Source of the DNA: Malus domestica
Lineage: Eukaryota > Streptophyta > Magnoliopsida > Rosales > Rosaceae
Direction of reading: 5' to 3'
DNA length: 64,000 nt
Assembly (NCBI RefSeq): GCF_042453785.1
Contig: NC_091670.1
Location: 40,931,501 to 40,995,500 of the forward strand
Part shown: piece after piece, positions 3,197 through 62,084 of the stretch
Numbering within the stretch: position 1 is the stretch's first letter
Layout: every line of letters begins with the position of its first letter
The notes under the pieces: model-generated
The model's input: only the letters and a program-made list of their open reading frames with translations
Told to the model about the DNA's origin: nothing
Databases searched by the model: none
Translations under genes and position numbers: made by a program

Positions 3197-3207
3197 CTCC
3201 CCCTCAA
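3197..3207 (-). other. Polypurine tract of the copia element
   Basis: On the minus strand this reads TTGAGGGGGAG, directly upstream of the 3' LTR. It is where plus-strand DNA synthesis is primed in LTR elements. The gag-pol stop codon (TGA) lies inside it. Confidence 0.85.
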
Positions 3208-6200: not shown

Positions 6201-7529
6201 AGGAACAAATAAGGCTACTGACTCAATTTTGTCCGACATTAAGTTGATATTTCCCTTCCCTAAAACCTTAGAACTCTCACCATTGGCAGTTGAGACTTGA
6301 GAAGGTTTTGAAAAATTTTCAAACTTGTGAAACTTAGAAACATGGTTGGTCATATGATCTGTGGCACCCGAATCAACAATCCACAAATCATGCATCATAT
6401 TTACATTAAGAGCAGTTTTGAAAGCAGTCATGATACCTTGCATGTCATCTCGGGTCATGTGTTGTGTGTCTGTCAGAAATCCAGCGAACTTGCCTAGCAA
6501 AGCTATTGAATTTCCATCTTCAAAGCCAACCTCTTTCTTGCTTTGAAGATACACTGCAAACTCATTTATGAGTGCAGCTGGATTTGCAGTGAAATTCTTG
6601 AGTGCATCAGAACCATGAGATGTTGAGGCAGTTGCATTGTTGGCTCTGTGTGGTGCACGGTTCAGTCTTTGTGAGCCCTTGTTATCCTTCATGAACTCTG
6701 GCTTTAATTCTGGATGTAAAGTCCAGCATGTCTCCTTAACGTGACCAGTATAGTTGCAGTGTTGACACTTTAAGTATGGATTCTTCACTTTGTATTTTCT
6801 TTCGTTGGCTAGATAAGCCCTTGCTTCAGTTACACCGGTCTTTGTGCCAATGTTCATGACTTTCCTTCGTACTTCTTCACGTTGGATTGTTGCACATACG
6901 CTGGTGAAGGAAGGTAGATCGGGGTTCATGAGTATGTGGCTTCGTAGGTCTTCGTATCCTGAATCGAGGCTTGACAAGAGTTGGAATATCTTGTCTTCTT
7001 CTGCCCTTTTTAGTAGCAAAGACGCCTCAGTTGTATGAGGCCGATACATTTCCAGCTCATTCCACATGCTCTTCATGCTGCCCAGAAGTTGAACAAAGGG
7101 CTTTCCTTCTTGTTGTAGGTTGGAAATGTCCTTCTTCAATTGAAACACACGTGCAGCATTGTTCTGGCTGCCATACATCTCCTTGACTGTCTCCCATAGC
7201 TTGAATGATGATTCAGAATAACTGAATATTTCAGCTAGTTTACGTTCCATGGAATTTAGGAGCCATGACATAACTAGCTGATCCTTGCAAAGCCAGATTT
7301 CATAAGTTGGTGAGGAAACATCTGGGACTTCGATGCTTCCATTTATGAACCCTAGCTTGGATCTTCCACCTAGGGCAAGACTCACTGCTCTCGACCAAGG
7401 TAAGTAATTAAACTCATTTAACAAGACCGAGCTTAATCTTTGATTTGGATTTACATCCACCTCAGACACGGTTGAGGAGGAAGGCTGGGGATTTTCATCT
7501 CCAAACGAATAAGAATGTTCTTCCGCCAT
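3204..7529 (-). CDS. Copia gag-pol polyprotein, 1441 aa, uninterrupted
   Basis: This single frame holds the usual copia order. A gag domain covers roughly residues 30-240. A zinc knuckle of the C-x2-C-x4-H-x4-C type is near 255-268. The aspartic protease motif DSGA is near 384, and the GAG-pre-integrase LWHQRLAH near 516. Integrase catalytic residues are near 568, 630 (DNGTEY) and 666. The reverse transcriptase carries YVDD near 1126. RNase H carries CDADWAG near 1288 and SSAEAEYRAM. The length is normal for a complete copia polyprotein and no stop or shift interrupts it. The ATG at 7529 lies 55 bp from the primer-binding site. It is expressed, if at all, from the 5' LTR at 7597-7889. The N-terminal protein would form the particle and the rest would copy and integrate the element. 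Confidence 0.96.
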   Translation of the reverse strand: MAEEHSYSFGDENPQPSSSTVSEVDVNPNQRLSSVLLNEFNYLPWSRAVSLALGGRSKLGFINGSIEVPDVSSPTYEIWLCKDQLVMSWLLNSMERKLAEIFSYSESSFKLWETVKEMYGSQNNAARVFQLKKDISNLQQEGKPFVQLLGSMKSMWNELEMYRPHTTEASLLLKRAEEDKIFQLLSSLDSGYEDLRSHILMNPDLPSFTSVCATIQREEVRRKVMNIGTKTGVTEARAYLANERKYKVKNPYLKCQHCNYTGHVKETCWTLHPELKPEFMKDNKGSQRLNRAPHRANNATASTSHGSDALKNFTANPAALINEFAVYLQSKKEVGFEDGNSIALLGKFAGFLTDTQHMTRDDMQGIMTAFKTALNVNMMHDLWIVDSGATDHMTNHVSKFHKFENFSKPSQVSTANGESSKVLGKGNINLMSDKIESVALFVPSFPFQLLSVGKITNTLNCLAIFSPHNVIFQDCLTKKTIGEGFYLDGLYYISKSSPRGFQAKSSPSQDSQLWHQRLAHPAQPVLSSLFPNLGNDLILCETCHLSKATRLPFTSSLSRTSKVFELVHSDVWGPTFESFDGYKYYVTFVDDFSRATWLYLLKSKSEVIEVFKDFHNLVKNHFSSQIQTLRSDNGTEYMSHIMSLYLSKHGIMHQTSCVGTPQQNGVAERKNRDILEKTRALMLQMNVPKRFWSHGVMAAVYIINRLPSRVLGFKSPLEVMKGRKIDLSHLRVFGCVCFVHIQSHHRDKLDPRALKCIFLGYSSTQKGYKCYDPQLRKIIVSKDVRFHEANPFFSKSHEATSQGECILDLIPLPRICTQDVLNDRGANHDHIDESSTPLIEVNNEGTHPDSSVHDDDNGNQENPQGVDENLNEDEINLPEPRHNPRRDRQPPTRFQDFVTYKPRHPISNCVSYQKVTPSHAAFLNNISSHSEPQNFYEAKNQVVWKEAMRDELKALDQHKTWSITKLPQGKKAVGCKWIYKIKFNSDGSIERHKARLVARGFTQTFEVDYKETFAPVAKMNSVRVLLSVAVNKGWSMYQMDVKNAFLHGDLEEEVYMRLPPGHPQSQEPNLVCKLHKSIYGLKQSPRAWYAKLSTVLHSIGFKRSNADSSLFVRTRAASKLVVLIYVDDLIITGDNAAEITTLKQSLQQKFAVKDLGVLKYFLGIEMASSYKGLFLNQRKYVMDLLKDANMSDAKPALTPLDSKLKLDLGGTSLSDISLYQRLVGKLIYLTITRPNISHSVSIASQFMHSPTIEHLNLVKRILRYLKGSVGRGILMAKNDNTQIMGYCDADWAGNAIDRKSTTGYCTFIGGNLVTWKSKKQTVIARSSAEAEYRAMASTACELIWLKGLLCDLGVFTAQPMTLFCDNQAAMHIASNPVFHERTKHIEVDCHYIREQVQSQVIQTHYVKSFDQLADIFTKPLASHQFQRLLSKLGSINLLDPA

Positions 7530-7584
7530 GTCGGAGATGGAATACGATCAGCTAGAAGAAATGCAGAAGCAGGTTATTTTTCCT

Positions 7585-25458: not shown

Positions 25459-28325
<2,867 letters not shown>

Positions 28326-28842
28326 GCGGAAGCCAAATGTTATATCACAGTGCAATGTTACCACCATCCTCCACTGCCTTCCAAACATGAATTGCATTTT
28401 ACGCCATACATACAAATGGATCCAAAGCTGTACATATCTGGATGGACAAAAAAAGTTATGTCAGGGCCAATGTTTTAGTGTAAACTATGTTTTTATGTGA
28501 GCACCTTAACAAGTTTTTGGTGGCAATTTTTATTGTTTTTTTTTAACTCCCAAAATTGACTGAAAGTAGGGAATTATACCTCATAGTTTTTAATTAATTG
28601 GTTTTGTAAAGTTTTTACGGCCATAAAATATATTTTATAGCATTAAGAGTTTTAACTTCAAGTTCTACATGAAGATATTCTAGGCCACAGAATAATTTCT
28701 GGGATCTGGATAGTCTTCTCAATGTCAAACATGAACTTTACGAAACTTCCTGTGCAGCGAGAATGACACGAGAAAATATCTTTTAACGTTTTTGAGAAAA
28801 TATTCTATAATAATTTTTGTAGAAATTCGCAAAACCAATGTC
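28326..28842. other. 3' flank of SRLK-2, no gene seen
   Basis: AT-rich, with no recognisable coding or RNA features. Confidence 0.5.
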
Positions 28843-29709
28843 GGCTCATGAGAAATTTTTCAGTGTGACTGGAACACAAGATGGTACACCACGTATCATT
28901 ATACAAAGGGGCTTTTAGATCCAAGTCCAAAAACATAGAGTGTTTTTAGGAGTGACTCCAGTTATCTAATTATATGTTTTTATTTCTTTTCTACTCCTTT
29001 TATATTTTCTAAAAATATTAAAAATCAATTAAAATCTTTTAATATTATGCATTTTTCAACTCCAAAATATCTAATTAATATCTTATAAACAAAAAAAAAA
29101 ATAATATAATAACATAAATCTATCTGCAAAACATTCTACCCTAACTCAAGTAGCAAATATATGAATGTATATTATACCTATAAGTGAGATATGAAACCTA
29201 ACTAAAAGGTAGAAAAAAAACATAATATACCTACAAGCAAGACACATTAATCTGTGACAGGTTGACTATGAAAAAGAATCTGTCATATAGGTAAATAAAT
29301 ACAATTAACCTGTGATATAGGTTGATTATAAAAATTAAAAAAAAATCTATAAATGGGTTAAAGTAGGAGGAAGAACAAGAAATAACAAAAAAAAATAAAT
29401 ATAAAAAGAAATAATCAAAGAGATAATTGGGAAGAAATTTGATTTTTACAATAAGTTTTTTCTTTTAAGAGATAATTATTGATAATAAAATAATTAAATT
29501 TAAAGAATTGGACTTATTTTAATAAATTGGATCATTCCTACTATTGGTTCAAAAAATTGGAGTTATATCAAGTTTCCCCTTATACAAATTGTGGGATGTG
29601 TGTGTTAAAAATTTAATACCTTAAAAAAATAAAATTTCTCACCACTTATATAAAAACACGTGGTGTACCACTCGTATTCACGTTACCATAAAAAATTTCT
29701 CGTTGGCTC
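28843..29709. mobile_element. AT-rich element with long imperfect terminal inverted repeats
   Basis: The left end (28843-28902: 'ggctcatgagaaattttt' ... 'ggtacaccacgta') is the imperfect reverse complement of the right end (29661-29709: 'acgtggtgtaccac' ... 'aaatttctcgttggctc'). Inside it, a second pair ('atacaaaggggctttt' near 28907, reverse complement of 'aagtttccccttatac' near 29570) suggests a nested MITE. The interior is noncoding. Confidence 0.55.
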
Positions 29710-30351
29710 ACGGCATTTTATTACAATGGGTGAAGAAATATCATTGCATTCCTCACTACTAATTTTAGAAGAGCAGTTTTTCACAATGCTGGAATACGAT
29801 CTAGTACACCTTCACAATACAAATTGTTAGATACTTAAAAAATATATCTCAACCATTTATATTATGACAAATTGATGTACGACCATGTTTCTGGCATGCT
29901 GGCAAATTTCTCCTTTTATATCAGCAATACTTTCATTTCATAGTATTGTTGATTTAATATTTTATCATAGCATCTCCAAGTTGCCCAAATACTTTTCAAA
30001 GTTATGATTCGAATAAAAGGGCTGGATGCCAGAAAATGTGGTCAAAGAAAGGGACCCAAAAGTACCAACCCCAATAGAATATACGCAAGTCGGCGGGCAT
30101 AATAATGGACTATCAAACTACTGAAATTAGGAAGTTGACAAAGTTGACCATCTCTACCAGTCTACCAGAGAAAATAAACTTGATCCAAAAAAAGGCTTAA
30201 CAATGATTGATTACATTTAAACACCACATAATTATCGTCATTAAGGTTTCGGACGACAAGTAGATAACACCGTATTTGCTCAGAATTCAGTACTAAAGTG
30301 TCATCATTCTTTGTTTTAATGAACATTGAGCACTAAGTTATTTGGATACAA
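29710..30351. promoter_or_regulatory. Upstream region of SRLK-3
   Basis: Noncoding. About 30217-30270 ('attaaggtttcggacgacaa' then 'gtagataac') matches 25250-25290 upstream of SRLK-2 ('caaggtttcggatgacaatt'). This makes it the best candidate for a conserved promoter element of this subgroup. No certain TATA box was assigned. Confidence 0.4.
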
Positions 30352-33524
<3,173 letters not shown>

Positions 33525-34515
33525 TCTTCACTGTACATGAAGGATTTTGTCATTCTGAAGTGTTCCTACACCTATTGGAGTTTTTGGGATACATGAAGAT
33601 TTTCCCAAGAAGTAGAGATTAGATTGGACCGAATATACTTTATTTACATTGTTACTGTTATTGTGAAAGATCATTATTCTTCCTATCAGAGATTGAAACA
33701 AATCCATATAACATTCAAAGCAGCCATGCCTTTTCTGCAACATTTCCTTACTTTTCATGGTAGTTTCTCACACGAATTAAAAGCTACCGAATCAAGGATC
33801 GAACGGTCCGTATGAAAACGAAGACATGATTATTCATCCATTCAATATTCCGTGAAGTGTTCATCTAGCTTTGAAGCTACAATGTACATGTATACTCTTT
33901 AAGGCATAGCTAGCAAACGTGAATACTGAGTTATAGTCACAGGTTTCATGCAAAAAGCAATCCCAGTAATTTCACAAGATAAGTCAGCGCTTCCCATAGA
34001 GTGGATGCAAGCATCATCGTCCTTTCTTAAACCGTCTTCATACATCGTAGAGTTGCAGTGTGACTTTTCCTTGTGCTTGTATAAGTTTTTCATAGTTTCT
34101 CGGTGCGCCAAGAAGTGGTGGGATAATTTCTTTTTATTTACTTTTAATTATTTTAACATTTTCCTCATGAGGAAAATATGAAAAACACATTTTGATACAG
34201 AAAATTATGATTTTTGAATTTCTAACTCAATAAGAATACAAGAGAGATGTTGGGTTGGTCATTTCCATAGGGAGCTTCTAGTCAAAGCCGTTAGGCCAAA
34301 CCAACCGAAGCGTTGACCAAATTTCGTCAGAGACCTAGCTACCGGATTTGTTCATCATTCGGCAGGAAGGAACTGAAATTTCTCGATATTTTTGGCACCG
34401 TGCTACCGAGTCCGAATGGCGCTCGTGAACTTATCTAGAATACACTATACGATTACATTTCACAGTATACTGTACAGATCATCTAGGAATTATAGTCAAG
34501 CAAGAGGCTGAATCA
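33525..34515. other. Spacer between convergent SRLK-3 and SRLK-4
   Basis: Holds the 3' UTRs of both genes. No coding sequence, RNA or transposon border was recognised. Confidence 0.5.
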
Positions 34516-37500
34516 TTATCGAGCTTCAACTCTAGTTATTGTGAAATCGTCACCAGAATATAATCCGTTCGGAATTGATGGACCAGCAACACTGCATGAA
34601 CTCTTTCTGAAGACAAATGCAGGCTGCTGAGGAGATGGTAGAGATGCTTCGCCACTCAACATGAATACAACTGCTGACATAGTCGGTCGATCCTTTGAAT
34701 CTTCTTGAACGCACAAGAGCCCGACTTGAATGCATCGCATGACTTCATCTGACTGATACGAGTCCAATGAAGAATCCACGATTTCTAAGGCTCTGTCTTC
34801 TCTCCACAGCTGCCAAACCTGCAGTTGAAAGTAACATTTTGAGAAAGGGATGAATGTAAGTAGTAATTAGTAGTAAGGATGGATTGTTATCGGATTTTGT
34901 GTGACTTACATGTCCTATCAAGTTCACGGAATGATCCTCCTGGTACGAACCATTGTTTTTACTTCCGCTTACAATCTCCAATAAGATGATCCCAAAACTA
35001 AATACATCTGATTTCGTTGAATACCTTCCAAACACTGCATATTCTGGTGACATATATCCACTACATATGAACAGATAACACCATATTACAGACAACTCTG
35101 TTGAATATAAATATGACAGTATGGTGTGATTTATTTCATGCATGCGTGAATGTGGTATGATTCTTACTATGTTCCGACAACTCTGTTGGTCTTATCCTGC
35201 AGTTGGTCCCCATGGAATATCCTTGCCATGCCGAAATCTGAGATTTTTGGGTTCAACTCAGCATCTAGAAGAACATTACTGGTTTTTAGATCCCTGTGGA
35301 TAATCCTAAGTCTTGAGTCCTGATGGAGATACAAAATCCCACGAGCAACCCCGTTGACGATTTCAAAACGTTTTTTCCAATCCAGCAAGGACCTTCTTGT
35401 ATGATCTACAAAATGATATGGTTTCTATGTAAATGTCATATTTTTCTTTGTAATAAGCTTAACACACACACACATACACACATATATTGTACATAGTTTT
35501 AGAAACATTATGAACAAATGAATCTTTCCTCCAGACATACCAAAAAGAAAGTAGTCCAAGCTCTTGTTCGGCAAGTGTTCCAGGATCAACATCCTTTCTT
35601 CTCCCCTAATACAACAGCCTAAAAGTTTCACGAGGTTCCTGTGTTGAAGTTTTGCTATCAACGCAACTTCGTTTTTGAATTCTTCAACCCCTTGTCCTGA
35701 AGTTCTGGACAATCTTTTTACAGCAATAATCCGATCATCATTTGGTAACTGACCCTGAAGTTTTTATTGGGTATTATCATTAAGCTTTGACGTAATTGCC
35801 ACTTTTAACGATATATTTACTTGTGATAAGCTAAAGAAGAATAGTAAAGAAACAGAGTACTCTCTAATGCTGAGAAGAAATCATTCTATTATAAGATATC
35901 TATGGCTTCTAAATTTCGACCAACCTTATAAACCGTACCAAAACCACCTTGGCCAAGTTTATTGACGCAAGAGAAGTTGTCTGTAGCTGCTATTATCGTG
36001 CTCAGATTGAAAAATTGCAATTCAGGGTGTCTTCTGGTTTCTTCAAGTTCATCTGCAATTAATAAAAGAAAATCATTGTCGATGTCATTTTCTCCTCACT
36101 ACTGCAGTGAGGAGAGAGCTTTGCAAAAGAAAATAATTTTCCTTGAAAAAATGACATCGGAAGTAGAGAGCTTTGATGTGGTTTACAAACTGCAGAAGTG
36201 TTATGACCAACGCCGTACTTCAATGAGTAGAATGCTTTCTGTTTAGTTGACACGGTTAAAGAATTTAGATGACACGGTTAAAGAACTGACTACTTCTTAC
36301 CTTTTGTCTTCCTCTTTTTCTTAAGCCACCAACAGGACAACGCAAGGATTAGTATCAATGCCAGAAGAACAGACAACATCAGAACAGCCAGCATACCCCT
36401 CCTTTTAAGAAAACCTTTAGAGTTTCTTGAATTTTCAGCTACACATAAGAGTGGGACAAAGGATTAGAAAACATCAAAACCAGTAGTACAGTAAGTATCA
36501 TATATTCTGAAAATCTGAAACTCAACTTTTCCATGGCAAGAAATGGTACCTAATTCGATTTTGTCCACACGAACATGCAGATCTCGCCCTACCTGTGTGT
36601 GCACTAAAATGTCCAGCAACTCACCATACCATGTCAAGCAATCAATGCGCCCTTCAGCTTCTATGATCATATATGCAGAGCAAGAACAATTTCTTAAGCA
36701 CACCTGCTCGCACTCTTTGTGACTCGTACTGTTTTCAAACCGTGCTACTTTCATTGTGTCTGGATCTTTAACTCGTGCCACTTTGACGAACCCCTCTCCG
36801 TTCCCACACTTTGACACCGCAACTCGTTTACTCACACAGCCACCTGACCCATCTCTCCTATTCCAATCATTGACAGACTTTGGTTCATACCCTGGCAGGC
36901 ACTCACACTCGAATAAATTGATATTGTCAGGGCTACATTTGCTGTTGGCGCCACACTGTCCATACTGGTCACACCGATATTTTGGCGCAGACCAGAGTTC
37001 CTTCCATTTGCTATCTGCATTGTTCCACCTCAGGTGTTGCAGTAACCCAGAATCATTCAAGACCACCCTTATTGGAGTGCTATCGCTTTGAATTAAGTAA
37101 TACATTTCGTCCTGATTAATGACAAAACTAGGGTCTTCCAGTGTATCACTTCGCCAATATGGAGTCAAACCTTTATAAGTAACAAAATATTGGGGTTTGA
37201 AACGTTGATTGGAACGGAGCCTAACAGTGTAGTCCCCAGTTCCAGGGTCATCTTGTGACTTCCAAGATGTTAAGACCCACTGTATCCCTGTTTTCCAATT
37301 GATGCCGAGTTTCATACCCTGAAGGAGAGTATCTGTAGGATGATCAAAACTCTGCCACATAAAACTTTCACTTTTGTTATCTTGGAAAAGAACTAGATTT
37401 CCAGAATCTAACAGCTGAGCCCTGCAACTAGTGTTTGCGGTTTGGACCGTCACATTTGTAGACCATATAGGAATACCCTGCATATTGTAAGCATAAAGAA

Positions 37501-37783
37501 GCAGTCTTCCGTACCTGTCTATAGTAAGGATTCCAGAGGTGTCATTGATGGGGTTGTTTCTGTTTGCAACCCAAACCACTGCTTTTTGATCTTTTCGAGC
37601 AAACCAAATTCCGACATATCTGTACCTGGAGTTCCCGGGGCTGAAGAACCCTAGTTCGAAGATATTATCTTTAGACACCAGCAAATCACCGTCCTTGACA
37701 TGTTGGTCCGTTGCTATGGTGTCAACGGACGTGCCAAATGGGAAGAGGAGGAAGAACACAAGAAGCAAAGCTTTCATTAACAT
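34516..37783 (-). CDS. SRLK-4: RKS1/At1g11410-like G-type lectin receptor kinase, intact, 801 aa
   Basis: Minus-strand exons: 37783-36550, 36438-36301, 36052-35925, 35754-35541, 35405-35168, 35060-34910, 34818-34516 (2406 nt, 802 codons with stop). The signal peptide is [20 protein letters not shown]-lectin contains [18 protein letters not shown] and [16 protein letters not shown]. The S-locus glycoprotein region has [13 protein letters not shown] and the PAN has NCSCSAYM. The membrane helix (exon 2, about residues 430-450) is followed by KKKRKTK. Kinase: GQGGFG near 492, AVKRL near 513, HRDLKTSN near 608, DFG near 628, SPEYAV. It ends VEAR. The VKDGD...GFFSPGNS...PINDTSG pattern places it with RKS1-type SRLKs, some of which act in immunity. 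No substrate can be inferred. The paralogue SRLK-5 has identical exon phases. Confidence 0.95.
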
Positions 37784-38502
37784 TTTTCTTGGGCATTTCC
37801 ATCCATCAACCAGTGGCCCTTCACTTATTTTTCTGAGTTGTGGCCATAAATTGACACTTTTGGTTTGACAAGTTGGCGGCTTCTTTGAATTTTGGCAATT
37901 TTGGCAATTTTGGTCAGTTGGTATGACCTACTCAACAACGACGTCTCTAAAGTTTGAATTGACTTATAGTTGCCTATTTTTGCTTCCACCATGGCTACTG
38001 ATGATATTCAAAACTTGTCAACTGCCGAAGATATTATGGAACTTTGACAACTGTTCAAGCAAGGACCTGCACCATTTTAGATTAATAAACCTTGGATATA
38101 GGTGATAATTGTTAAGATGCAAGACTTGTAACTCAAGTGGTTAAGAGCATTTATTTACACGAAAATTTCTGTTTCATTACCTTTCATTCTGCATACCCCT
38201 ACTTAAATTTTTTCTTGAACTCTCGTTTGCTATATTCAATTCAAACTCCAAAATAAACCGAACATGGTTCATAAAATAAAAAAAAAATAAATAAATTAGA
38301 GATTGAGACTTTTCTTAAGGAATTTTCATTTTCCTTTCCGAAAAAATCTGAATATAAGGTCTTCGAGTTATTGGGCCGAAACTTGAGCAGCTGACAGCCA
38401 TGTTAACTATGGGCCGACTTTTCGAATGTGTAAGTTTATAAGTATTTGGGCTGCAGGCCTCCATTAAAAAAAAACCGCAATAAAAGGTAAAAATGTACAA
38501 CG
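37784..38502. promoter_or_regulatory. Upstream region of SRLK-4 with the array boundary block
   Basis: 37848-38080 is a block recurring at 63205-63438 (high similarity, e.g. 'tttgacaactgttcaagcaa') and, diverged, at about 49600-49830. It is the likely promoter region of each minus-strand gene. The remainder is AT-rich without genes. Confidence 0.6.
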
Positions 38503-44506: not shown

Positions 44507-44716
44507 TGTAGAGAAGTCAATGATATCATTCCTGATATCTTGGCTTAGTTTAGGTAACATTTTTGTAATTGATTTGTATAAAGTTTAGTTTCCTGTTGTA
44601 TACCTAGAAAGTAGGGTAATTTACTTCTAAGTCAAGTATTCTTCTTTGTATAAATCTCCTTGTTTCAAAAGAAGAAAAATACTTCCGCAAATCATATTTT
44701 TGCTCTATTCTTTACA
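44507..44716 (+). repeat. 5' LTR of the nested copia
   Basis: 210 bp. TATAAAT at 44649-44655 is a plausible TATA box. It is followed at once by the primer-binding site. Confidence 0.93.
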
Positions 44717-44800
44717 TGGTATCAAGAGCTGGGTCGAAACCCTAGTTTTTGCCGCTACCCTTTCTTTCTATTTTTCAATAGCCATCTTCCGTCAACCATC

Positions 44801-47800
44801 ATGGCCACTGACGAAATTCCCAAAGGTTTTGCGGCTGACGTCAAAACTGATGTTTCAAATCCTTTGTTTATTCATCATTCAGATCACTCATCTATGATGC
44901 TGGTTTCGAAGCCCCTTAATGGGGACAACTACTCTACCTGGTCTCGTGCAATGAGAATCTCCCTTAGTGCCAAAAACAAGCTAGGTTTTATTGATGGTAC
45001 TGTTACACAGCCTTCCGAGAAAACCAAACCTGCTGATCATGCTACATGGCAGAGATGCAATGACATGATCGTTGTATGGATTATCAACTCCATTGATTCA
45101 GAAATTTCAGACAATATTCTTTACATGACTGATGCTCATGCAATCTGGGAGGAGTTGCGTGAGCGTTATTCTCAAAGCAATGTTCCTCGGATTTTCCAAT
45201 TACAACGGGACATTGCTTCTCTTACTTAAGACCAACTTTCAGTTGCTGCGTACTACACTAAGCTGAAGAAATTATGGGATGAACTGGCGTCATACAATGA
45301 CTCCACTTCCTGCACATGTGGAGCGCAAAATGAAAGAAATAAATTAATACAGTTCCTTATGGGTCTCAACGAGTCCTATAGTGCCATTCGAGGGCAAGTC
45401 TTGTTGATGAACCCTTTACCAACTGTTCGTCAGGCCCATGCTTCAATTTCCTAGGAAAAGAAGCAAAGATCTCTTACTGCTTCACGTGGAGTCACCAAGA
45501 CAGCAGCTATGGCTGTTCGATAAGGTGGTTCACGGTGATCTGGATCTTCAAGTCGTAAGCCCTTGCATTGTACTCATTGTGATCATGACTATCACACCAT
45601 TGATACTTGTTACCAACTTCACGGGTATCCACTGGGGCATCGTCTTCACAAAGTCAAGCCTCAAAAAAGAAGCAAGTCTTCTAAAAAGGAAGGCAATTCT
45701 TCTTCGTCTGCAAATCAAGTTTCAACAGGTGCAACTTTGGAAGAGATGAGGTCGGTGATGTCCAGGTTATCTGACACTCAATTCCAGCAAATCCTTGACA
45801 TCATGAATAATAAAGGAGTTGATGTCTCCGTTCCTCCAAAAGCTAATGCCACTGCCATAAAGACAGGTTTGTCGAAATCTTTTTTGCATTTACGTCGATG
45901 GATAATTGACAATGGTGCAACAGATCATATAACCTCCTCACCTGATTTGCTTACTGATGGTGTCAAAAACACCAATTTGTCACCAGTTTTATTACCAAGT
46001 GGAGAGCAAGCTCGCATAGTCTCCACTGGGACAATTCTTTTGAGTTCCACTTTTTTGTTACGAGATGTGTTGTGTGTGCCCTCTTTTCAAGTATATTTGA
46101 TGTCTGTGAGTCGAATTACAAGTGGATTGCATTGTTCTGTAACCTTTTTTCCCTTCATGGTGTCTTATGCAGGACTTGACGACGAAGAAGGTGATTGGTT
46201 TAGGTAAGCAACGTGGAGGACTTTACTACTTGGTAACGTTGATTCCCACCGTCTCTGGTAGCTCTCGCCAAGTTTGCAACCTTGTTCTCTCACCTACAGA
46301 GTTGTGGCATCGGCGTTTGGGTCATTTATCTCCTTCTAGGCTCGATTTCATGTCAAAACACCTGTTGCATTTTCCTTTTCAATCCAATAATGCTTGTAAT
46401 GTTTGTCCTTTAGCCAAGCAAAGTCGTTTACCTTTTAGTATCAGTTCCATTACAACCACAAAACCTTTTGATTTGATCCATTGTGATATTTGGGGTCCTT
46501 ACGCAGTTGCATCAACTTCTGGAGCCAAGTATTTCTTAACTATTGTGGATGATTATTCTCGTTTCACATGGATATTTTTTATGCAACACAAATCAGAAAC
46601 ACAGCACATCCTCAAGGGTTTTTTCTCTTTTGTTCAAACTCAGTTTAATACATCCATTCGCCAAATACGAGTGGACAATGGTAGATAATTTTTTTCTCTT
46701 CATGGTTTCTTCCAAGATCATGGGGTCCTTTATCAACGCTCTTGTGTCTATACACCCCAACAAAATGGGGTCGTCGAGCGCAAGCATCGTCACATACTTG
46801 AAATTGCTCGTGCTTTGCGTTTCCAAGCTAACCTTCCTATTACTTTTTGGGGGGAATGTGTCCTTACGGCTGTCCATATTATTAATCGTCTTCCTACCCT
46901 CATTCTTTCCAAAAATACTCCTTTTGAACAATTGTACTTAAAACCACCTTCATTTTCCCACCTTAAAGTCTTCGGTTGTCTTGCTTATGCCACCAACACC
47001 CATATCTCTCACAAGTTTGCTCCCCGAGCCCACAAATTTGTCTTCCTTGGCTACACGTTGGTTAAAAAGCGTACAAACTTTACAACTTTACCACTCATAC
47101 TTTTTTTACTAGCAGGGATGTTGTTTTTCATGAACATATTTTTCCTTACCATTCTTCTCCATCCTCTACTTCACCTAACCCTACGCCACTACCTATCGTC
47201 TTTCCTCACCCTACACCCTCTTTACCTGAGCCTCAAGCTACTACACCTTCTACCTCACCCGTGTCTACTGATACTCCTACCACTTTTTTTTCGCCCGAGA
47301 TTTCAACTGATTCTGACCTACACCCTGATGCATCTTCTCTCGAGCCTGCTGCCTCCCTGCCTCCTGCACCACCTGCACCGATGCTTCGCCGATCTAGCCG
47401 CCACTCCTCACCGCCTCCAAGGTTGCGAGATTATGACTGCCCCACTCTTAAGCTTACCCAACCTGATCCTCCATCGTCTTCATTGTCTGGTCATGCTAAT
47501 AGTACGCGTTATCCACTTGCTAATTATCTCACTTATCATCGTTTCTCACTTGCACAACAATCTTTTCTTGCAACTATCACTCAACAGGTTAAGCCCCAGA
47601 CTTATGCCGAGGCTGCTGCTTCCTCTCATTGGCAGGTTGCCATGACTTCTGAACTACAGGCTCTCGAAGCTAATCACACATGGACTCTCACTTCTCTTCC
47701 GACTGGTAAATCTCCCATTGGTTGTCAATGAGTCTATAAAATCAAGCTTCATTCTGATGGATCCATTGAGCATTATAAAGCTCGTTTGGTTGCCAAGGGT

Positions 47801-49122
47801 TACACACAACTTGAAGGGATTGACTTTCATGATACTTTCTCTCCCACTGCTAAGATGACAACTGTTCGCTGCCTCTTAGCTCTTGCTGCTTCCTGTTCCT
47901 GGTCTCTTCATCAACTTGATGTCAACAATACGTTTCTTCATGGTGATCTTCATGAAGAAATCTATATGCTTCCTCCTCCCGGTCTTCGGCGATAGGGGAG
48001 AATTTGGTATGTCGCCTTAACAAATCCTTATATGGACTGAAGCAAGCATCCCGGTAATGGTTTGCCAAGTTTTCTGAGTCTATTCACTGTGCTGGTTATG
48101 TTCAATCAAAGGCTGATTACTCTTTGTTCACAAGGCAGCAAGGCAAGTCTTTTATAGCTCTTTTAATTTATGTTGATGATATTCTGATCACTGGAAATTA
48201 TCCTAATGCCATTAGGGATCTCAAAAATTTTCTCAATAGTCGTTTCAAAATCAAGGACCTTGGTGACTTGAAATACTTTCTAGGCATCGAAGTGTCACGA
48301 TCAAAGAATGGGATTTTCATTTCTCAACGTAAGTATGCTTTAGAGATTCTGAAGGATGGTGGTCTTTTGGGAACTCGTCCAATCGAGTTTCCTATGGAGC
48401 TGAATCTTAAACTTTCTGACAATGGTGAGTTACTTAAAGATCCGGCACAGTATAGGAGGTTGGTGGGTCGATTGATCTATTTAACAATTACTAGGCCGGA
48501 TATCACATATTCGGTGCATGTGCTAAGTAGGTTTATGCATGAACCTCGCCGTCCACACATGGAAGTAGCTCTCCGAGTTTTGAAATACATAAAGATTACT
48601 CCTGGACAAGGTTTATTTTTCTCTTCTAAAAATGACTTGACCTTGAATGCATACTGTGATTCAGATTGGGCAGGATGTTCTATGACACAAAGATCAACCA
48701 CAGGGTATTGCGTGTTTTTGGGTTCTTCATTGGTTTCTTGGAGATCAAAGAGACAAAAAACCGTATCTTTATCATCAGCTGAGGCCGAGTATAGAGCCAT
48801 GACTGGAACTTGTTGTGAACTATCATGGCTTCGATATCTTCTAAAGGACTTGGGATTGTTGCATCCAAAACCGGCCTTATTACATTGTGACAACAAAGCA
48901 GCTCTTCATATTGCTGCCAATCCAGTTTTCCATGAGCGGACTAGACATATAGAGATGGATTGCCATTTTGTTCGAGATAAAATACAAGATGGTTCTATTG
49001 TTACGCGATTTGTTCCTTCTTCACAACAACTTGCAGATGTGTTCACGAAGGCATTGGGAAAGGAATCTTTCTTGTCCATTATACACAAGTTGGGAGTTCT
49101 TGACATCCACTCTCCAACTTGA
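44801..49122 (+). pseudogene. Copia gag-pol, broken by multiple stops and shifts
   Basis: Gag from ATG 44801, with the N-terminal gag motif LVSKPLNGDNYSTWSRAM. Protease-like DNGATDH near 45910, GAG-pre-integrase LWHRRLGHLS near 46305, integrase HCDIWGP near 46485 and VDNGR near 46675. RT follows, with YVDD near 48170, then RNase H (YCDSDWAG, SSAEAEYRAM). Stops: TAA 45227, TAG 45452, TAA 45521, TAA 46686, TGA 47729, TAG 47993, TAA 48055, plus frame changes near 46180, 46700 and 47070. Only the 332-aa C-terminal part (48124-49122) is open. It cannot make a full polyprotein. Confidence 0.95.
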
Positions 49123-49553: not shown

Positions 49554-50011
49554 TCTTGTTGATTTGGTATTTATTTGGATGTGGTATTTTTGTTCAACTG
49601 GTATTTGACTGACTCAGTGACAGTAATTCAGTTGCCTATTTTTACTTTCACCTTGATTACCGATTGCGAAGTGATTTTCACCACCCTCGTTTTATAGAAC
49701 AGAGAATAAAAGTAAAGGGAGGTATCAGAAGGAGAAACTGGGAGTGTGAAAATCACTACCCTTACTGATTAAGTTTCATTCAAACTTCTCAACTGCCAAA
49801 TGGACCTTGTTAATCGTCAGGTAACTGTGCATTGATCTTAACTAAACATGGAATTAAGTAATCTTAACTATATGTCTATGTTGTGAAATTATTGGATTGA
49901 AGTTAAAAGGCTAGAAAATGAGTTCTTGGTTAATACAAGTAATAAGGAAGGGAAACGAAATGATCAAACAATTTTGGTAATTACAGAATCAAGAGCCTGC
50001 ATCATTAACAA
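49554..50011. other. Tail of relic A and a diverged array boundary block
   Basis: A few bases of relic A resume after the TSD. About 49600-49830 is a weak match to the block at 37848-38080 (shared 'agttgcctattttta' and 'ttctcaactgcc'). It lies just 3' of SRLK-5. Confidence 0.5.
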
Positions 50012-53034
<3,023 letters not shown>

Positions 53035-53148
53035 TTGGTGTTTTACTTATTTTTCTGTCGGATCATTGACAATGTTAGATGTTTTCGTTGAAGTTTTTGC
53101 GTGGCAAGTTCTAAGGGCGCCATTCTGGGCTCAACTCAATAATATCGA

Positions 53149-56033: not shown

Positions 56034-56521
56034 TGTTAGCCTTATAAGGTTATACAATTAAAACACAAACGAAGAGTGACTGACCTGATTCCAATGGTAG
56101 TTACCGAAGATGCAGTAGCCATGCAAGCAAGACGTGATCGATAAAACTCCAATCTTTATGTTTGCCGTGACAAACAGAAACACCAACTCTTCTGTAAACT
56201 CCTAGCTTTATGACAATGCTCTATGGAAAGCCTTAGTTGTCGTCTCTAGGGTTAGCAGGGACCGGTGTTTATATACTAGCCAAAAAGTCTTAGATTCCGT
56301 CCATAAGGGAAAACTAAAACTCTTCTTTCTTGGCTCTCAAGTAAAATATCATAATCATATATTATTAAGAATTCCATCAATCCTATTTCCAATATAAGAC
56401 ACCTTATATAGAATTAATATCTTTAAGAGATTAAATCACAATTAACATTATTCTCCAATATTACATTCCTATTACATGTAGTAGACCACTTAAGGTTGAT
56501 TTATATTGGATAAATCCAACA
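56034..56521 (-). repeat. 3' LTR of the 56-62 kb element
   Basis: 488 bp, TGTTAGCC...CCAACA on plus; reads as identical to 61597-62084. Confidence 0.95.
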
Positions 56522-57056
56522 TTCTCCCACTTGGTCTACAAAATGTAATATTCACGTTTATACTTGAGATTGGAGACTAATATCACTTTAGTGGCCATGT
56601 AACAGTGATTACATCTCGTCCTTAATACAGCTTCTGTCAAATGCATTTCTTAACATGGAACTAACAAGGTTGTAGGATTGACACAATCCAGAACCTTCAT
56701 AATCACACATGCTAAGATCCTCATTCACATGAAACACAAATTATGATCAAGAGATGAAACTTTAAATAAACTTTAAATTAACTAAAATGTCTTACTTTAT
56801 ATCATCTCAGGTCCACCTTATTGTAACTCACAAGTTACACTTTATGCTTTTTCGAAGCCTTAAATCTACCAATGCAGATATCCTTCATCTAATGAAACCA
56901 CCATAACCTGAAGGTGTGAATACATCTCCAAAACAATCATGCATCACTTTCATTAGATCAACAATAATACAAACAATGTTTGTAGCCAACAGACACAACT
57001 GAAAATACCAAATAGGCACATGTCCAAGTAAAATATCCCAAAACTTCATAAAACAA

Positions 57057-57168
57057 ATTAATTCAACACTTGTGAGCAAGATGAATTAATATGTTTTTGA
57101 CACTAATCTATGCACCATACCAGTTACTTTCATAGTGATTTCCAACACCTGCGGGCAAGATGGAAATC
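57057..57168. repeat. Conserved-loop hairpins 1 and 2
   Basis: Hairpin 1: stem ATTAATTCA/TGAATTAAT (57057-57065, 57082-57090), loop ACACTTGTGAGCAAGA. Hairpin 2: stem GATTTCCA/TGGAAATC (57137-57144, 57161-57168), loop ACACCTGCGGGCAAGA. The loops are alike and the stems differ, yet both pair perfectly. Confidence 0.85.
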
Positions 57169-57237
57169 CTCACAACTGAGGTAGTGCACAAACCATGTCA
57201 TGCCATTTAATATGCAATTTGATAACAACTTGATATC

Positions 57238-57263
57238 TGATATATATATATATATATATATAT
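57238..57263. repeat. TA microsatellite
   Basis: A (TA)n run inside the LTR element interior, where a partner of hairpin 5 might be expected. Confidence 0.9.
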
Positions 57264-58732
57264 TTCATCAAATAATTGACTAGCATACGAAAAATGTGAC
57301 TTATTGAATCCAACTGGAGATTAATATGAATACATGGATTCTATACATACTTTATAGGTCATCTGCAAATGTAAGGCATTACTAACCCGAAACTCAAACT
57401 TCCACTGATCTGCAACATCATTACTTAATTTGCAAATCAATGCTTAAATCATACTTTTGAAAATATGCCTTTGGGAATAGCCTTACTTAGTCAATGACTG
57501 CATATTACCTCAATGAAAGGTACAACTAAGCATGAAAGCATTCACTGTTGTTTACACAAAAACCGTGCATCCAACAACCATTGTATATGTATTAATAAGT
57601 CCACATTTATGCTAAGTCCTTATGAGCCCCAAAACAAATGATCAATCGAGAAATCCAAATGATTGGCAGTAACAGAAAAAGGCACGCATATACCAAGTAT
57701 ACATTCGTGCAACTTAAACATATTATAGACATTCGAGTAGCGCAAATTCATGGAAGATAGAATAACGCTTTAATAGATTCATGCAAGTCCACTTAATGCT
57801 CACAATTTTAGAATAACTCCCACTAAGTTTTCAGAGTTTATACTTGCAAATAAGTTAATGAGTGTGAAGCCCAATTTTCGTTCACTAATTCTCCCACTAG
57901 GGCAAACACTCGTTAATATATTCTTTCAAAGATGTTCCTAAAGAAAATTGCTTTATATTTTAGACATAATAAAATAGACATTACAACCAACACAAAGTTG
58001 TCAAACAGAATTTCAGTAACGAGTTACACTTACTTTAGAATTTATCATAATTAATTTACAAGCTTGATTGCTACCAAATTTATACTGATCAAAATAGACA
58101 TACTGATCTTCATAAAATAGAAATACAGAGCCATTTTGGGTCAAAATAGTAGTCTAAAGTCACATCTCAAAAAACATCACAATCTGCCAGTAAAAACTGT
58201 CTATACGAGCATGGGTTACTAGTAAATTCACCATAATTAACATACATGGCAGAAAATTACGAAAATTTGCAGACACATATTAGACATCTATATGTTAAAC
58301 ATATCCAAAATTCAGGTCATTTGGTGACCATTAGACACGTCATTCACCCGATTTAAATCAAGACACGTAATCTGCCAGAAACAATTATGTGCTTCTATCA
58401 TGAATTTATGCATCCATAACAAATTCAATTTCATATCATTTCAATTTCGATGTCCAAAGGAAACTTTAATAGTCAAATTTCATCCTCTAAACCGACATCA
58501 TAGTTCAAATTGAAAAGATTTTCAAGCATAAAGACTTAAACAATGCGTACCTTAGCAATCCTTGATTAACCTTCATGGGTCCAATACTTTGCATCAACAA
58601 GTCTCATGAAGAGACACAAAATTCGTCATGATGCAACCGATTTCCATGCCTTCAAACCACAACCTTTTATGGGGCTCATTGTGGAAATATTTGTCACTAA
58701 TGGCATGGAACTTTATCCCAATAAACTTCATG

Positions 58733-58957
58733 AAACTAAATTAATTTACACATGTAGGCAAGAAAATTAACTAGTTTCTAGTACTAGATTTTATATCACA
58801 AAAGTTCCTTCAGGAAAAACTTCAACACCTGTAGGCAAGATGAAGGTTTTCACAACTTCTGTGAAATAAAACTCATACTATGCCATCTTAATTAAACTAA
58901 AAGAAGTAATCCACACCTGTAGGCAAGAAGATTATCCCTTTTATTCTAATTAAGATG
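58733..58957. repeat. Conserved-loop hairpins 3, 4 and 5
   Basis: Hairpin 3: TTAATTT/AAATTAA (58741-58747, 58764-58770), extended by AAACTA/TAGTTT, loop ACACATGTAGGCAAGA. Hairpin 4: 11-bp stem (58814-58824, 58841-58851) with one mismatch, loop ACACCTGTAGGCAAGA. Hairpin 5: same loop at 58913-58928, inner stem TAATC/GATTA and outer CATCTTAATTA/TAATTAAGATG (58884-58894, 58947-58957). Confidence 0.85.
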
Positions 58958-60300
58958 CAAAGTTGACCGAAGTAACTCAAAAATACAGTCTCATCATCAA
59001 CTGAGCCGTTGCGGCTTCCTTTAGTTGAAAAGACATTTATCAACTCCGTCCTGAAACAATGCAAAAGTCACATGGATTAATTAACTGTAAGTGACAAAAT
59101 TATGATAACCTGATTCAAGCGTCGAGTCCTGCCAACAAATGGCACTAATTCCTTCATGACTCCCTTTGACAATAAATTAATCTCAAGAAACTTGACAACA
59201 TACTTGAAAGAGATTAATCACATATAGAACAAGTTTTATTCCACCACAAGAATGTCAATACTTATCATTACAGAGTCAATTGCTTGAAATAGAAATACTT
59301 TATGTAATGCAAAAGAACAATACATTCCTTTAATTTAAAAACTAAATTGCTCAAATGTTTTCTTAAGTCAAACAGGTTCCTTTTCTTTTGTACATTTCTT
59401 TCCGTAGTACAAGGCTCCTAAAACATTAGCATCAAAATTGTGCATTAGCCTTGTAAATACCAAATTAAATAAAGGAATTACCAAAATTCTTTTCTTTCAA
59501 AAGAAACATCTCCAATACATGTCATACATTATCCTTGTATAAGTTTCTTTTCTTCTCCCCTTATGGCACATAAAAATTGACTAATCAAAATACTGTTTAA
59601 AATTCTTCAAGCATAGGAATAACCACAAACAATAATACATGTTTGAAAATTCATGCTTATTAGTTAAGCCACATACTTTGAATGAAATACATACCTCATG
59701 CCTTCATATGTTCAGTACTTCTTTATAAACATATATAATCACATGACCACCATAATTCTCATATAAGAATAAATAGAATACAAATGAGAAGTGTCACATA
59801 ATTACTACAAACCTCATTCATCTGTATATTGTACTTGTTCTTGCCACCGAATGCTTTCTGTCACTCTCAGTCAATCCACAAGTTATGCATCAATTTCATA
59901 GTTAACTAGTCACGTATAATTGAATGACTATACTGAGATAGGAAAGCAAAATTGTAGACAAAACTAATTTGATTAGTCAAGCAAATTTCTTATGGAGTTA
60001 ATATCATTATAAACCGTACTTGAATTAAATCTCCAATCATACTTAAGTACTAGCATACTGCATTACTAATCAACACATTTGTGTCTTTACATAAGATCAT
60101 CTCAAGCTTAAAGCAATATAGGACAACCCAATCCCTTTAATAAAACACGGCTTATGTCAATTTTGCTCCATGCTTGCATACTTAAAATTGAATCCATATT
60201 AGATATTTCCGACAGCAACCAATGACATGGCTATTTAATTCAGTCTATATATATTTCCTACACATAATCATGTAATGCAAAAGGAAAACAGAACCTGCAA

Positions 60301-60470
60301 TAATCCGTGAGGCATTCGAAGGGTCGTTAGTGTCCCCTTGTCGCCTGTCCACCCAGGACGCACCTCACACAGGTGTTCTCGCATGTGGCAGTAAAACCCC
60401 CTTAAACTTGCGGCTGGAGCTTTTGATTCCAGCAAGCTCGCTCTTATGTGGCACTAACAAAAATTAGCCG
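60301..60470. other. GC-richer structured island in the coding-free element
   Basis: In an AT-rich setting, this block carries hairpins CACCT-CACAC-AGGTG (60361-60375) and GCTGGA-9 nt-TCCAGC (60413-60433), plus repeated 'atgtggca'. Function unknown. Confidence 0.5.
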
Positions 60471-61596
60471 CGAACAAACAAGATAGATTTGACTTTTACA
60501 TACTTCTTGGCATGTTTGCATATCCCATTTGCCGACACTTATGCAATTATTTCTTGTTAAATTGGAGTATCACCTCAAGCCATTTTGTAGAGAACAAATC
60601 AGTGAATGTGTAATAGAAATTTATGGCAACCAAAATATATCATAACGGTACCTTAATTTACTGGAGTAATAATTCAAATAAATTGCAAAACCTTAAATTT
60701 ATCATTGCTCTTCCTGATCGAAAAGAAGTATATTAACATATACCAGATTAAAAATTGATAATGTCAATTCTTAGTCAAACACATAAATCATGTGCCTATT
60801 TTTATACCGTTGCCAAACATAAAATAATTGGATCCATATTCATGACATACTTAACTGAAACATGGTATTCAATGTATGTACATGCTCTACAATACTTAGC
60901 ACATCACTCATGCAAGTACATATTATCTTATTACCAATTTAAGCTTTCAGGGATCAACCCAAATATATATCAGCCAAAATATCATAAACCATCATGGAAA
61001 TCAAAGTCAATGATACAAACCGTTTTGCTATGGTGGATGACTTCGTTCTTGCTAATTGGAGGGGCCTCTTCAGTAAGGTCAGAACAAATATAGCATGCTT
61101 ACAAAAATTGAGATCATCAGTGGCACATGGTAAATCATTCCAACCAAAACATTAGCATGAAAATTGAAATAGAACGAAACTGTTATTCTTCTCAGTGCCT
61201 GGTTCGTGGTTTTATACTTGTGACTTCATGTGTTTCTAACGCAAGCTATTTTCAATGGCTTAATATGGCTGGTCAAAGGGAATCACTTTAAACTATATTT
61301 GAAATAGAAAAATCTCCCATGGTTTCCATTGTAAAATAGTTATGATACCATGATTTATATATAAGAATTGATACCACGATTTGCATTCGTGCCATAAAAT
61401 TAGTAAAATTCTTGACTAAAACCGAATGGTTATATAACATATAAACAATCATCAATTGTACCGATTGAAACATGGTGGTGTTGCCAAGTATATGCAATCA
61501 TAACTTGGATTAAAAACGCAACTCATAAAAATATTATATAGTCCAACCTAAAACCTAATAGGTTTTAATCATATAACCAATGGCTCTGATACCAAT

Positions 61597-62084
61597 TGTT
61601 AGCCTTATAAGGTTATACAATTAAAACACAAACGAAGAGTGACTGACCTGATTCCAATGGTAGTTACCGAAGATGCAGTAGCCATGCAAGCAAGACGTGA
61701 TCGATAAAACTCCAATCTTTATGTTTGCCGTGACAAACAGAAACACCAACTCTTCTGTAAACTCCTAGCTTTATGACAATGCTCTATGGAAAGCCTTAGT
61801 TGTCGTCTCTAGGGTTAGCAGGGACCGGTGTTTATATACTAGCCAAAAAGTCTTAGATTCCGTCCATAAGGGAAAACTAAAACTCTTCTTTCTTGGCTCT
61901 CAAGTAAAATATCATAATCATATATTATTAAGAATTCCATCAATCCTATTTCCAATATAAGACACCTTATATAGAATTAATATCTTTAAGAGATTAAATC
62001 ACAATTAACATTATTCTCCAATATTACATTCCTATTACATGTAGTAGACCACTTAAGGTTGATTTATATTGGATAAATCCAACA
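61597..62084 (-). repeat. 5' LTR of the 56-62 kb element
   Basis: 488 bp. A minus-strand TATATAAA at 61838-61831 is a likely TATA box. Confidence 0.93.

Follow-up and report, generated by a model that had tools for sequence, protein, structure and literature searches.

A triple stem-loop in the leaders of Copia elements of Malus domestica, recurring in a non-coding LTR element, as a candidate packaging signal

The window analysed here is a stretch of 64,000 nucleotides (nt) of Malus domestica (assembly GCF_042453785.1, contig NC_091670.1, positions 40,931,501 to 40,995,500 of the forward strand), and all positions below refer to it unless stated otherwise. It contains a 6.05 kb element with paired long terminal repeats (LTRs), which harbours five hairpins with a common loop. 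The LTRs are 488 nt long with 0 differences between them, and GTACG flanks both ends of the element. Because the primer binding site (PBS), which we take to be of the tRNA-Met type, and the polypurine tract (PPT) place it so, the sense of the element is the minus strand:

56034..62084, sense on the minus strand: whole LTR element, non-coding, resembling a large retrotransposon derivative (LARD), delimited by the LTR pair and the flanking GTACG
61597..62084, minus strand: 5′ LTR (in sense)
61577..61594, minus strand: primer binding site TGGTATCAGAGCCATTGG
56522..56536, minus strand: polypurine tract GACCAAGTGGGAGAA, recognised by its sequence and adjoining the 3′ LTR
56034..56521, minus strand: 3′ LTR (in sense)

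No Pfam family reached the cut-off when six of the eight open reading frames (ORFs) of at least 60 amino acids (aa) in the element were scanned for gag/pol coding, and a single match lay below it (E 0.06). A tblastn search of the element with one Copia polyprotein of another lineage gave no match up to E 1. The element has the paired LTRs, target site duplication (TSD), PBS and PPT of a non-autonomous LARD-like element and no gag/pol coding. An earlier sequence-only reading of this DNA had proposed a recently mobile, non-coding element with identical LTRs, and our data support this.

The loop of the hairpins, searched with at most three mismatches, was found at 57066, 57145, 58748, 58825 and 58913. 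None of 100 shuffled sequences reached five matches (shuffle mean 0.52), which confirms that the loop is kept in five places. The spacings of the hairpins are 79, 77 and 88, the first two as previously given. The element carries two modules, B (H5-H4-H3) and A (H2-H1, stem-loop 1 lost), the hairpins being labelled here as stem-loops (SL) 1 to 3:

58884..58957, minus strand: module B SL1 (H5)
58781..58879, minus strand: module B SL2 (H4), long stem, outer limits set by eye from the fold
58732..58779, minus strand: module B SL3 (H3)
57238..57262, minus strand: (TA)n tract at the place where SL1 of module A is expected
57099..57199, minus strand: module A SL2 (H2), long stem, outer limits set by eye from the fold
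57050..57097, minus strand: module A SL3 (H1)

Directly beside the five loops, 44 of 50 ungapped positions can pair, a value reached in none of 200,000 draws; other parts of the element average 4.2 per 10. The description of sequence-divergent, still-paired stems holds, but the stem length of 7-11 bp was set too short, as the stems of H2 and H4 extend to about 100 nt. Likewise the 16-nt loop is conserved, but it is not a plain loop: on the sense strand it is itself folded in four of the five hairpins, with an outer stem, a bulged U, a helix of the CUUG/CAGG type, a CCUA-like tetraloop and a UGU bulge, whereas H3 keeps an open loop. Among the five outer stems, nine of ten pairs have changed on both sides, and none of 500 shuffles attained the observed score. 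A covariance model built from the hairpins scores them at 46.7-49.6 bits, while the next best place in the window has 13. An Rfam scan of the window gave no family at gathering score. The five hairpins are RNA-like and apparently selected.

The sequence-only reading had left it open whether selection acts on RNA or on cruciform DNA. The sense folds were more stable than the antisense folds in all five hairpins and at all four flank lengths tried, and the shuffle z-scores of the two window modules were -4.4 and -3.9 in sense and -2.8 and -1.6 in antisense. In addition, 101 G-U pairs stand against 10 A-C oppositions, counted on a structure that was derived from the sense strand. The fold stability and the G-U excess disfavour cruciform DNA, which is unlikely, although the z-score of one coding relative (see below) points the other way; the RNA half of the claim gains support from covariation.

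To place the hairpins in a wider context we used a single genome of 651 Mb in 19 contigs. The 16-nt loop occurs in it 257 times with at most one mismatch, compared with 6 matches for the reversed control. From the first 100 of the 257 places we drew 49 element loci, each containing one or more exact 16-mers and none lying on contigs 13-17; this choice biases the sample toward conserved loops of module B, but not of module A. With the window excluded, the trio of module B was present in 46 and the pair of module A in 40 of the 49 loci. In 50 aligned rows, the two modules had 22.6 and 21.8 substitutions per kb compared with 37.4 in the spacer, and 0.6 and 0.3 gaps per kb compared with 13. In the flanks outside the modules, substitutions amounted to 36 and 61 per kb and gaps to 2.9 and 6.8 per kb. 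These rows come from 51 queries (the 49 loci plus L094 and L096), and one copy may be counted twice, as L094 is the copy L044. Covariation within the element copies alone was discarded as a test because the copies are too similar. Loops with other neighbours were sought by pattern, which gave eight places (control 0), among which L096 and L094 are element copies, and L089-L092 and L095 carry the loop motif at 16-20 bits without a comparable stem. L089, L090, L091 and L095 belong to a separate repeat family with TTTCTTGCTTACAGGTGTATTAATGG or near variants, again lacking a comparable stem. A second loop pattern was found at one place in the genome (L097).

The eighth place of the first pattern, L093, is a diverged Copia element with an LTR 80% identical to that of the window element, followed by three hairpins (39, 32 and 14 bits) and a gag frame with stops, a fragment of which matches PF14223 (E 5.6e-12). 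A search with this gag fragment yielded 150 scored relatives out of 1094 candidates. Gag matches of at least 68% identity numbered 21 including L093; besides L093 itself, 15 leaders were taken and five were skipped because of stops or partial sequence. The covariance model, built solely from the five hairpins of the window, was then run on 20 leaders and gave 42 matches at E<=10 (37 at E<=0.01, the weakest at 0.4). Three matches fell in each of 14 leaders and none in the other six, and all lay on the gag strand. The leaders with trios (L098-L110 and L112, 69-94% gag identity) make up 14 of the 15 with at least 68% gag identity, and their hairpins lie directly upstream of gag. The more distant L113-L117 (57-62%) gave no match to this model. 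When three equal cores with five of six pairs were required without gaps, only L108, L109, L110 and L112 matched, the result for L112 being equalled by 1 of 100 shuffles; so strict a search was unsuited, as it missed trios known to the model because of bulges.

Ten distant leaders (L113-L120, L125 and L126) were inspected for related motifs, and three such motifs are present in most of them, some weakly. In L113-L117 and L119 the three hairpins have loops resembling C-YAAA-G and are spaced 83-90 nt apart, and L118 has three with CCAAACAAAGG-like loops at a spacing of 81-84. When 24 distant hairpins were folded (L120 included), 19 had a z-score below -1 and the mean was -2.6; their loops were picked by eye, and the 24 are not independent since L113, L115 and L116 are near-copies. 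L125 and L126 (50% and 47% gag identity) each contain three [CT][ACT]AAAG motifs, a result seen in 1 of 300 shuffles each for a motif chosen post hoc, and five of their six stems are no stronger than composition predicts. Seven of the ten distant leaders passed the test for this motif, while L114, L118 and L120 failed. The idea that the distant lineages have unrelated loops was dropped, as intermediates in L125/L126 such as CTTGCCCAAAGGTGT link the loop types. Given the trios in 14 of 15 close leaders and the related motif trios in most distant ones, the ancestral unit is a triple stem-loop (SL1-3) carried by a Copia lineage in its 5′ leader, and not the two-hairpin module that had been described; module A has the (TA)n tract at the place of SL1. 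In the coding relatives SL1-3 form a structured stretch of leader RNA that separates PBS and gag, as is expected of a retroviral packaging signal (psi).

Covariation was measured across these families. From a set of 50 hairpins we counted 42 (30 of them distinct), ungapped and anchored on the loop, leaving out eight with other loop or match lengths. The flanking cells were paired in 82% of cases, compared with 28-57% after sliding and 58% (maximum 69%) after swapping of the arms. In an RNAalifold alignment of 16 SL2-SL3 modules, 23 of 49 pairs had changed on both sides, and 96.8% of the cells were paired, compared with 33-43% after sliding. Four of five measures exceeded all 500 shuffles in this test, whereas the pair types did not (69/500). 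The covariation proposed as a check is thus present, as seen with RNAalifold and pair counts across related families in place of R-scape and element copies. We consider the structure of the hairpins and selection on it to be nearly certain.

The two modules of the window element resemble different leaders. Most of module A matches the L093-L107 leaders at 73-80%, and only a 41-nt piece of it matches the L108-type leaders, while the best match of module B is to the L108-type leaders (68.5%, the next 64.6%). In a tree of 29 SL2-SL3 rows, a branch with support 100/99 separates module B and L108-L112 from module A and L093-L107; the group nearest to module A is weakly supported (68/57). A single clade of A and B was rejected by the approximately unbiased test (p-AU 0.021), a value that is optimistic, since the group was named after the BLAST comparison and paired sites are not independent. 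As the modules fall with two different Copia lineages, there was probably no internal duplication, which the sequence-only reading had proposed as the origin of both modules. It is quite likely, judging from these matches and the tree, that modules A and B were derived from two Copia lineages.

Reading upstream of gag in four coding families, namely L093, A2 (L121), A4 (L122 and L123) and B (L124), we found a common arrangement. In all four an ATG within the LTR opens 13-22 coding nt that end in phase 1 before a donor-like GT, followed in order by the LTR end, the PBS, SL1-3 and an acceptor-like CAG at the start of gag in matching phase. Exon 1 and gag are both in phase 1 in every family, and the other two frames contain stops. 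Corresponding sites occur in the window element:

61659..61685, minus strand: relic of the LTR-borne first gag exon (ATGGCTACTGCATCTTCG), then donor-like GTAACT
56994..57014, minus strand: acceptor-like TTTTCAG following SL3 of module A, where the coding relatives have the gag acceptor

A second relic with its donor lies in the other LTR (56096-56122), and a counterpart stands at a comparable position in A1, A2, A4 and B relatives. Moreover, the LTR end and PBS of A2 are 84% identical to those of the window element over 74 nt, and TGGTATCAGAGCCATTG of the PBS recurs in the A2 relative. We think it likely, from the order and phase of these predicted sites, that SL1-3 lie inside a leader intron whose removal would join the LTR ATG in frame to gag. 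The donor of the non-coding element, read at 30 LTR loci, is GTAACT in 19 and has been lost, as ATAACT, in 11; some of the 30 loci are pairs from one element. Of the 39 acceptor sites found among the 49 loci, 37 retain the acceptor-like TTCAG. Seven of the 11 ATAACT loci adjoin a sampled copy, and module B is present in every one of these copies. L023 and L041 have lost the donor in both LTRs and kept both modules, and L010 has no module A within the stretch sampled. Loss of the donor with the modules kept is expected if the RNA of a parasite need only stay unspliced and be packaged.

We propose that SL1-3 may be a psi-like tag by which Gag would recognise unspliced genomic RNA, and that the non-coding parasite makes use of it. 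In the coding elements both SL1-3 and the PBS would lie inside the leader intron. In spliced RNA gag would start at the LTR ATG, the PBS and SL1-3 having been removed; unspliced RNA would retain both and serve as the packaged template. Gag would recognise the repeated loops, for packaging and/or dimerisation, and the non-coding window element, with SL elements from two Copia lineages, would be mobilised in trans in the particles of its relatives. This reading best accounts for a repeated, covarying leader structure between PBS and gag that is predicted only in unspliced RNA and is kept by an element without coding. Both the psi-like tag as a whole and a packaging function of SL1-3 as such seem to us moderately probable. 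Packaging, dimerisation or recognition by Gag, already named in the sequence-only reading, thus stays the leading idea. More tentatively, a single transcript may yield mRNA or genome as mutually exclusive products, through an intron that holds both PBS and a three-hairpin psi, and a parasite with the psi of two rival lineages could be a 'dual-licence' element able to use both particles; this wider picture is possible, but we would not lean on it.

Several observations weigh against the packaging reading. In the window element the modules do not adjoin the PBS but lie at distances of about 2.6 and 4.4 kb. In-frame ATGs downstream occur in several of the coding families, so that splicing would not be strictly needed for Gag. 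Hairpins are absent from L111 (gag identity 68%), and what precedes its gag does not look, by eye, like a leader of the trio type. The z-score of the L093 module is no better in sense (-2.5) than in antisense (-3.0), and the stems of L120, L125 and L126 mostly do not exceed in strength what their composition would give (z +0.8 to -2.2).

Moreover, a role in nuclear export or splicing would fit the same position. As an export or intron-retention element resembling the constitutive transport element (CTE) or RNA transport element (RTE), SL1-3 would bring unspliced RNA out of the nucleus via a host factor. Their place in a predicted intron, where unspliced RNA needs help, agrees with this, and tandem hairpins with a repeated loop would suit a protein dimer. 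A 2025 review describes the RTE and the MusD transport element (MTE) as export elements of mouse LTR elements and leaves it unclear if those of plants possess export motifs that resemble cytoplasmic accumulation regions (CAR) (PMC12786077). However, the loops drift between lineages within one host genome, which disfavours a single host factor even though a common AAAG-like core remains, and psi would fit the position before gag no less well; we regard export as not very likely. That the hairpins mainly control splicing by hiding splice sites, or the start of gag translation, might be expected from their location directly upstream of the acceptor-like site and the gag start. This is improbable in view of the non-coding element, which has no gag to start, of L023 and L041, which keep both modules after losing both donors, and of modules that change more slowly than the spacer. 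The long stems of H2, H4 and H5 could be diced, but conserved loops and stems that change by compensation are the opposite of microRNA precursors, with their conserved stem arm and variable loop, and small-RNA precursors or silencing decoys are accordingly very improbable. Functionless decay of a tandem repeat, or chance palindromes, could account for the loop motif without a comparable stem in L089-L092 and L095. In view of the covariation, the spacing that is kept, the 14 leaders with trios and the slower divergence, it is scarcely credible, and the decayed repeat with unpaired flanks that the sequence-only reading had set against its own proposal is not borne out.

The packaging reading has parallels in known systems. 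The psi and dimerisation stem-loops of human immunodeficiency virus 1 (HIV-1) and murine leukaemia virus (MLV) lie in the 5′ leader between PBS and gag, downstream of the splice donor. SL1-3 share with them several adjacent stem-loops between PBS and gag and strand polarity, and would also share a donor upstream and presence only in unspliced RNA if the predicted intron is used. Unlike these signals, SL1-3 represent a single hairpin in three near-copies, which have the folded loop in common; they belong to a plant Copia lineage, the predicted intron links an LTR-borne ATG to gag, and the role is one that we infer. As in LARDs, the window element has a non-coding interior of about 5 kb between LTRs, with PBS, PPT and TSD. 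Barley LARDs have LTRs much longer than 488 nt, the length found here, and in the present case signal modules and donor lineages have been identified.

A precedent for mobilisation in trans is the packaging of Gag-less BARE2 RNA in BARE1 particles, as given in PMC3735527. That pair likewise consists of a Copia element with a Gag-less parasite, conserved signals for dimerisation and packaging are mentioned, and translation and packaging draw on separate pools. In the same account two promoters separate the pools, whereas here a leader intron would do so, and BARE2 keeps much of its coding frame, whereas the window parasite is non-coding with two modules of two lineages. The review PMC12786077 describes plant LTR elements as generally without introns, with Ogre and EVADE as exceptions, and reports that Copia RNA of EVADE (Arabidopsis) and of BARE1 is spliced into distinct mRNAs, as proposed here. 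Those introns lie in gag-pol and yield a short gag RNA, while the intron predicted here is the leader with PBS and hairpins. The word stems 'psi' and 'dimeri' are absent from the main text of that review. Full-text literature searches, with most subscription journals outside their reach, gave no description of SL1-3, nor did the accessible parts of two plant RNA papers (PMC3735527 and PMC12218528), the latter having there no word beginning 'transpos'. A paper on TGTT/AACA LTRs (PMC5659011) concerns, in its accessible part, LTRs with other ends and not the window element. A searchable three-hairpin element with natural variants of its loop, together with the coding relatives that share its genome and a two-module parasite, makes it testable how RNA of plant LTR elements is chosen for packaging and how non-coding elements spread.

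Some further observations concern the window element and its surroundings. At 60290-60480 the otherwise AT-rich non-coding element contains a GC-rich structured block, the sense strand of which has ACACCTGT, complementary by eye to the 3′ half of the hairpin loops (ACAGGTGT). Two ORFs scanned in the block had no Pfam match; it is possibly a long-range partner of the loops or a captured piece of a gene. Of all 80-nt local folds in the interior of the element, that at 56647-56726, near the 3′ LTR in sense, is the most stable (-26.6 kcal/mol). Elsewhere in the genome (G000 C10:2205451-2215435), one copy of the element apparently lies inside another in opposite orientation, judging from LTR matches. 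The window holds two other Copia elements, at 3204-7547 (minus strand) and 44654-49122 (plus strand), one of them with an open frame of 1447 aa. The hairpin covariance model found no match in either, and by eye both have short leaders with the gag ATG within about 100 nt of the PBS. Around 25900-38000 and 50000-53100 lies a cluster of genes and gene fragments that, by eye, resemble G-type lectin or S-locus-like receptor kinases.
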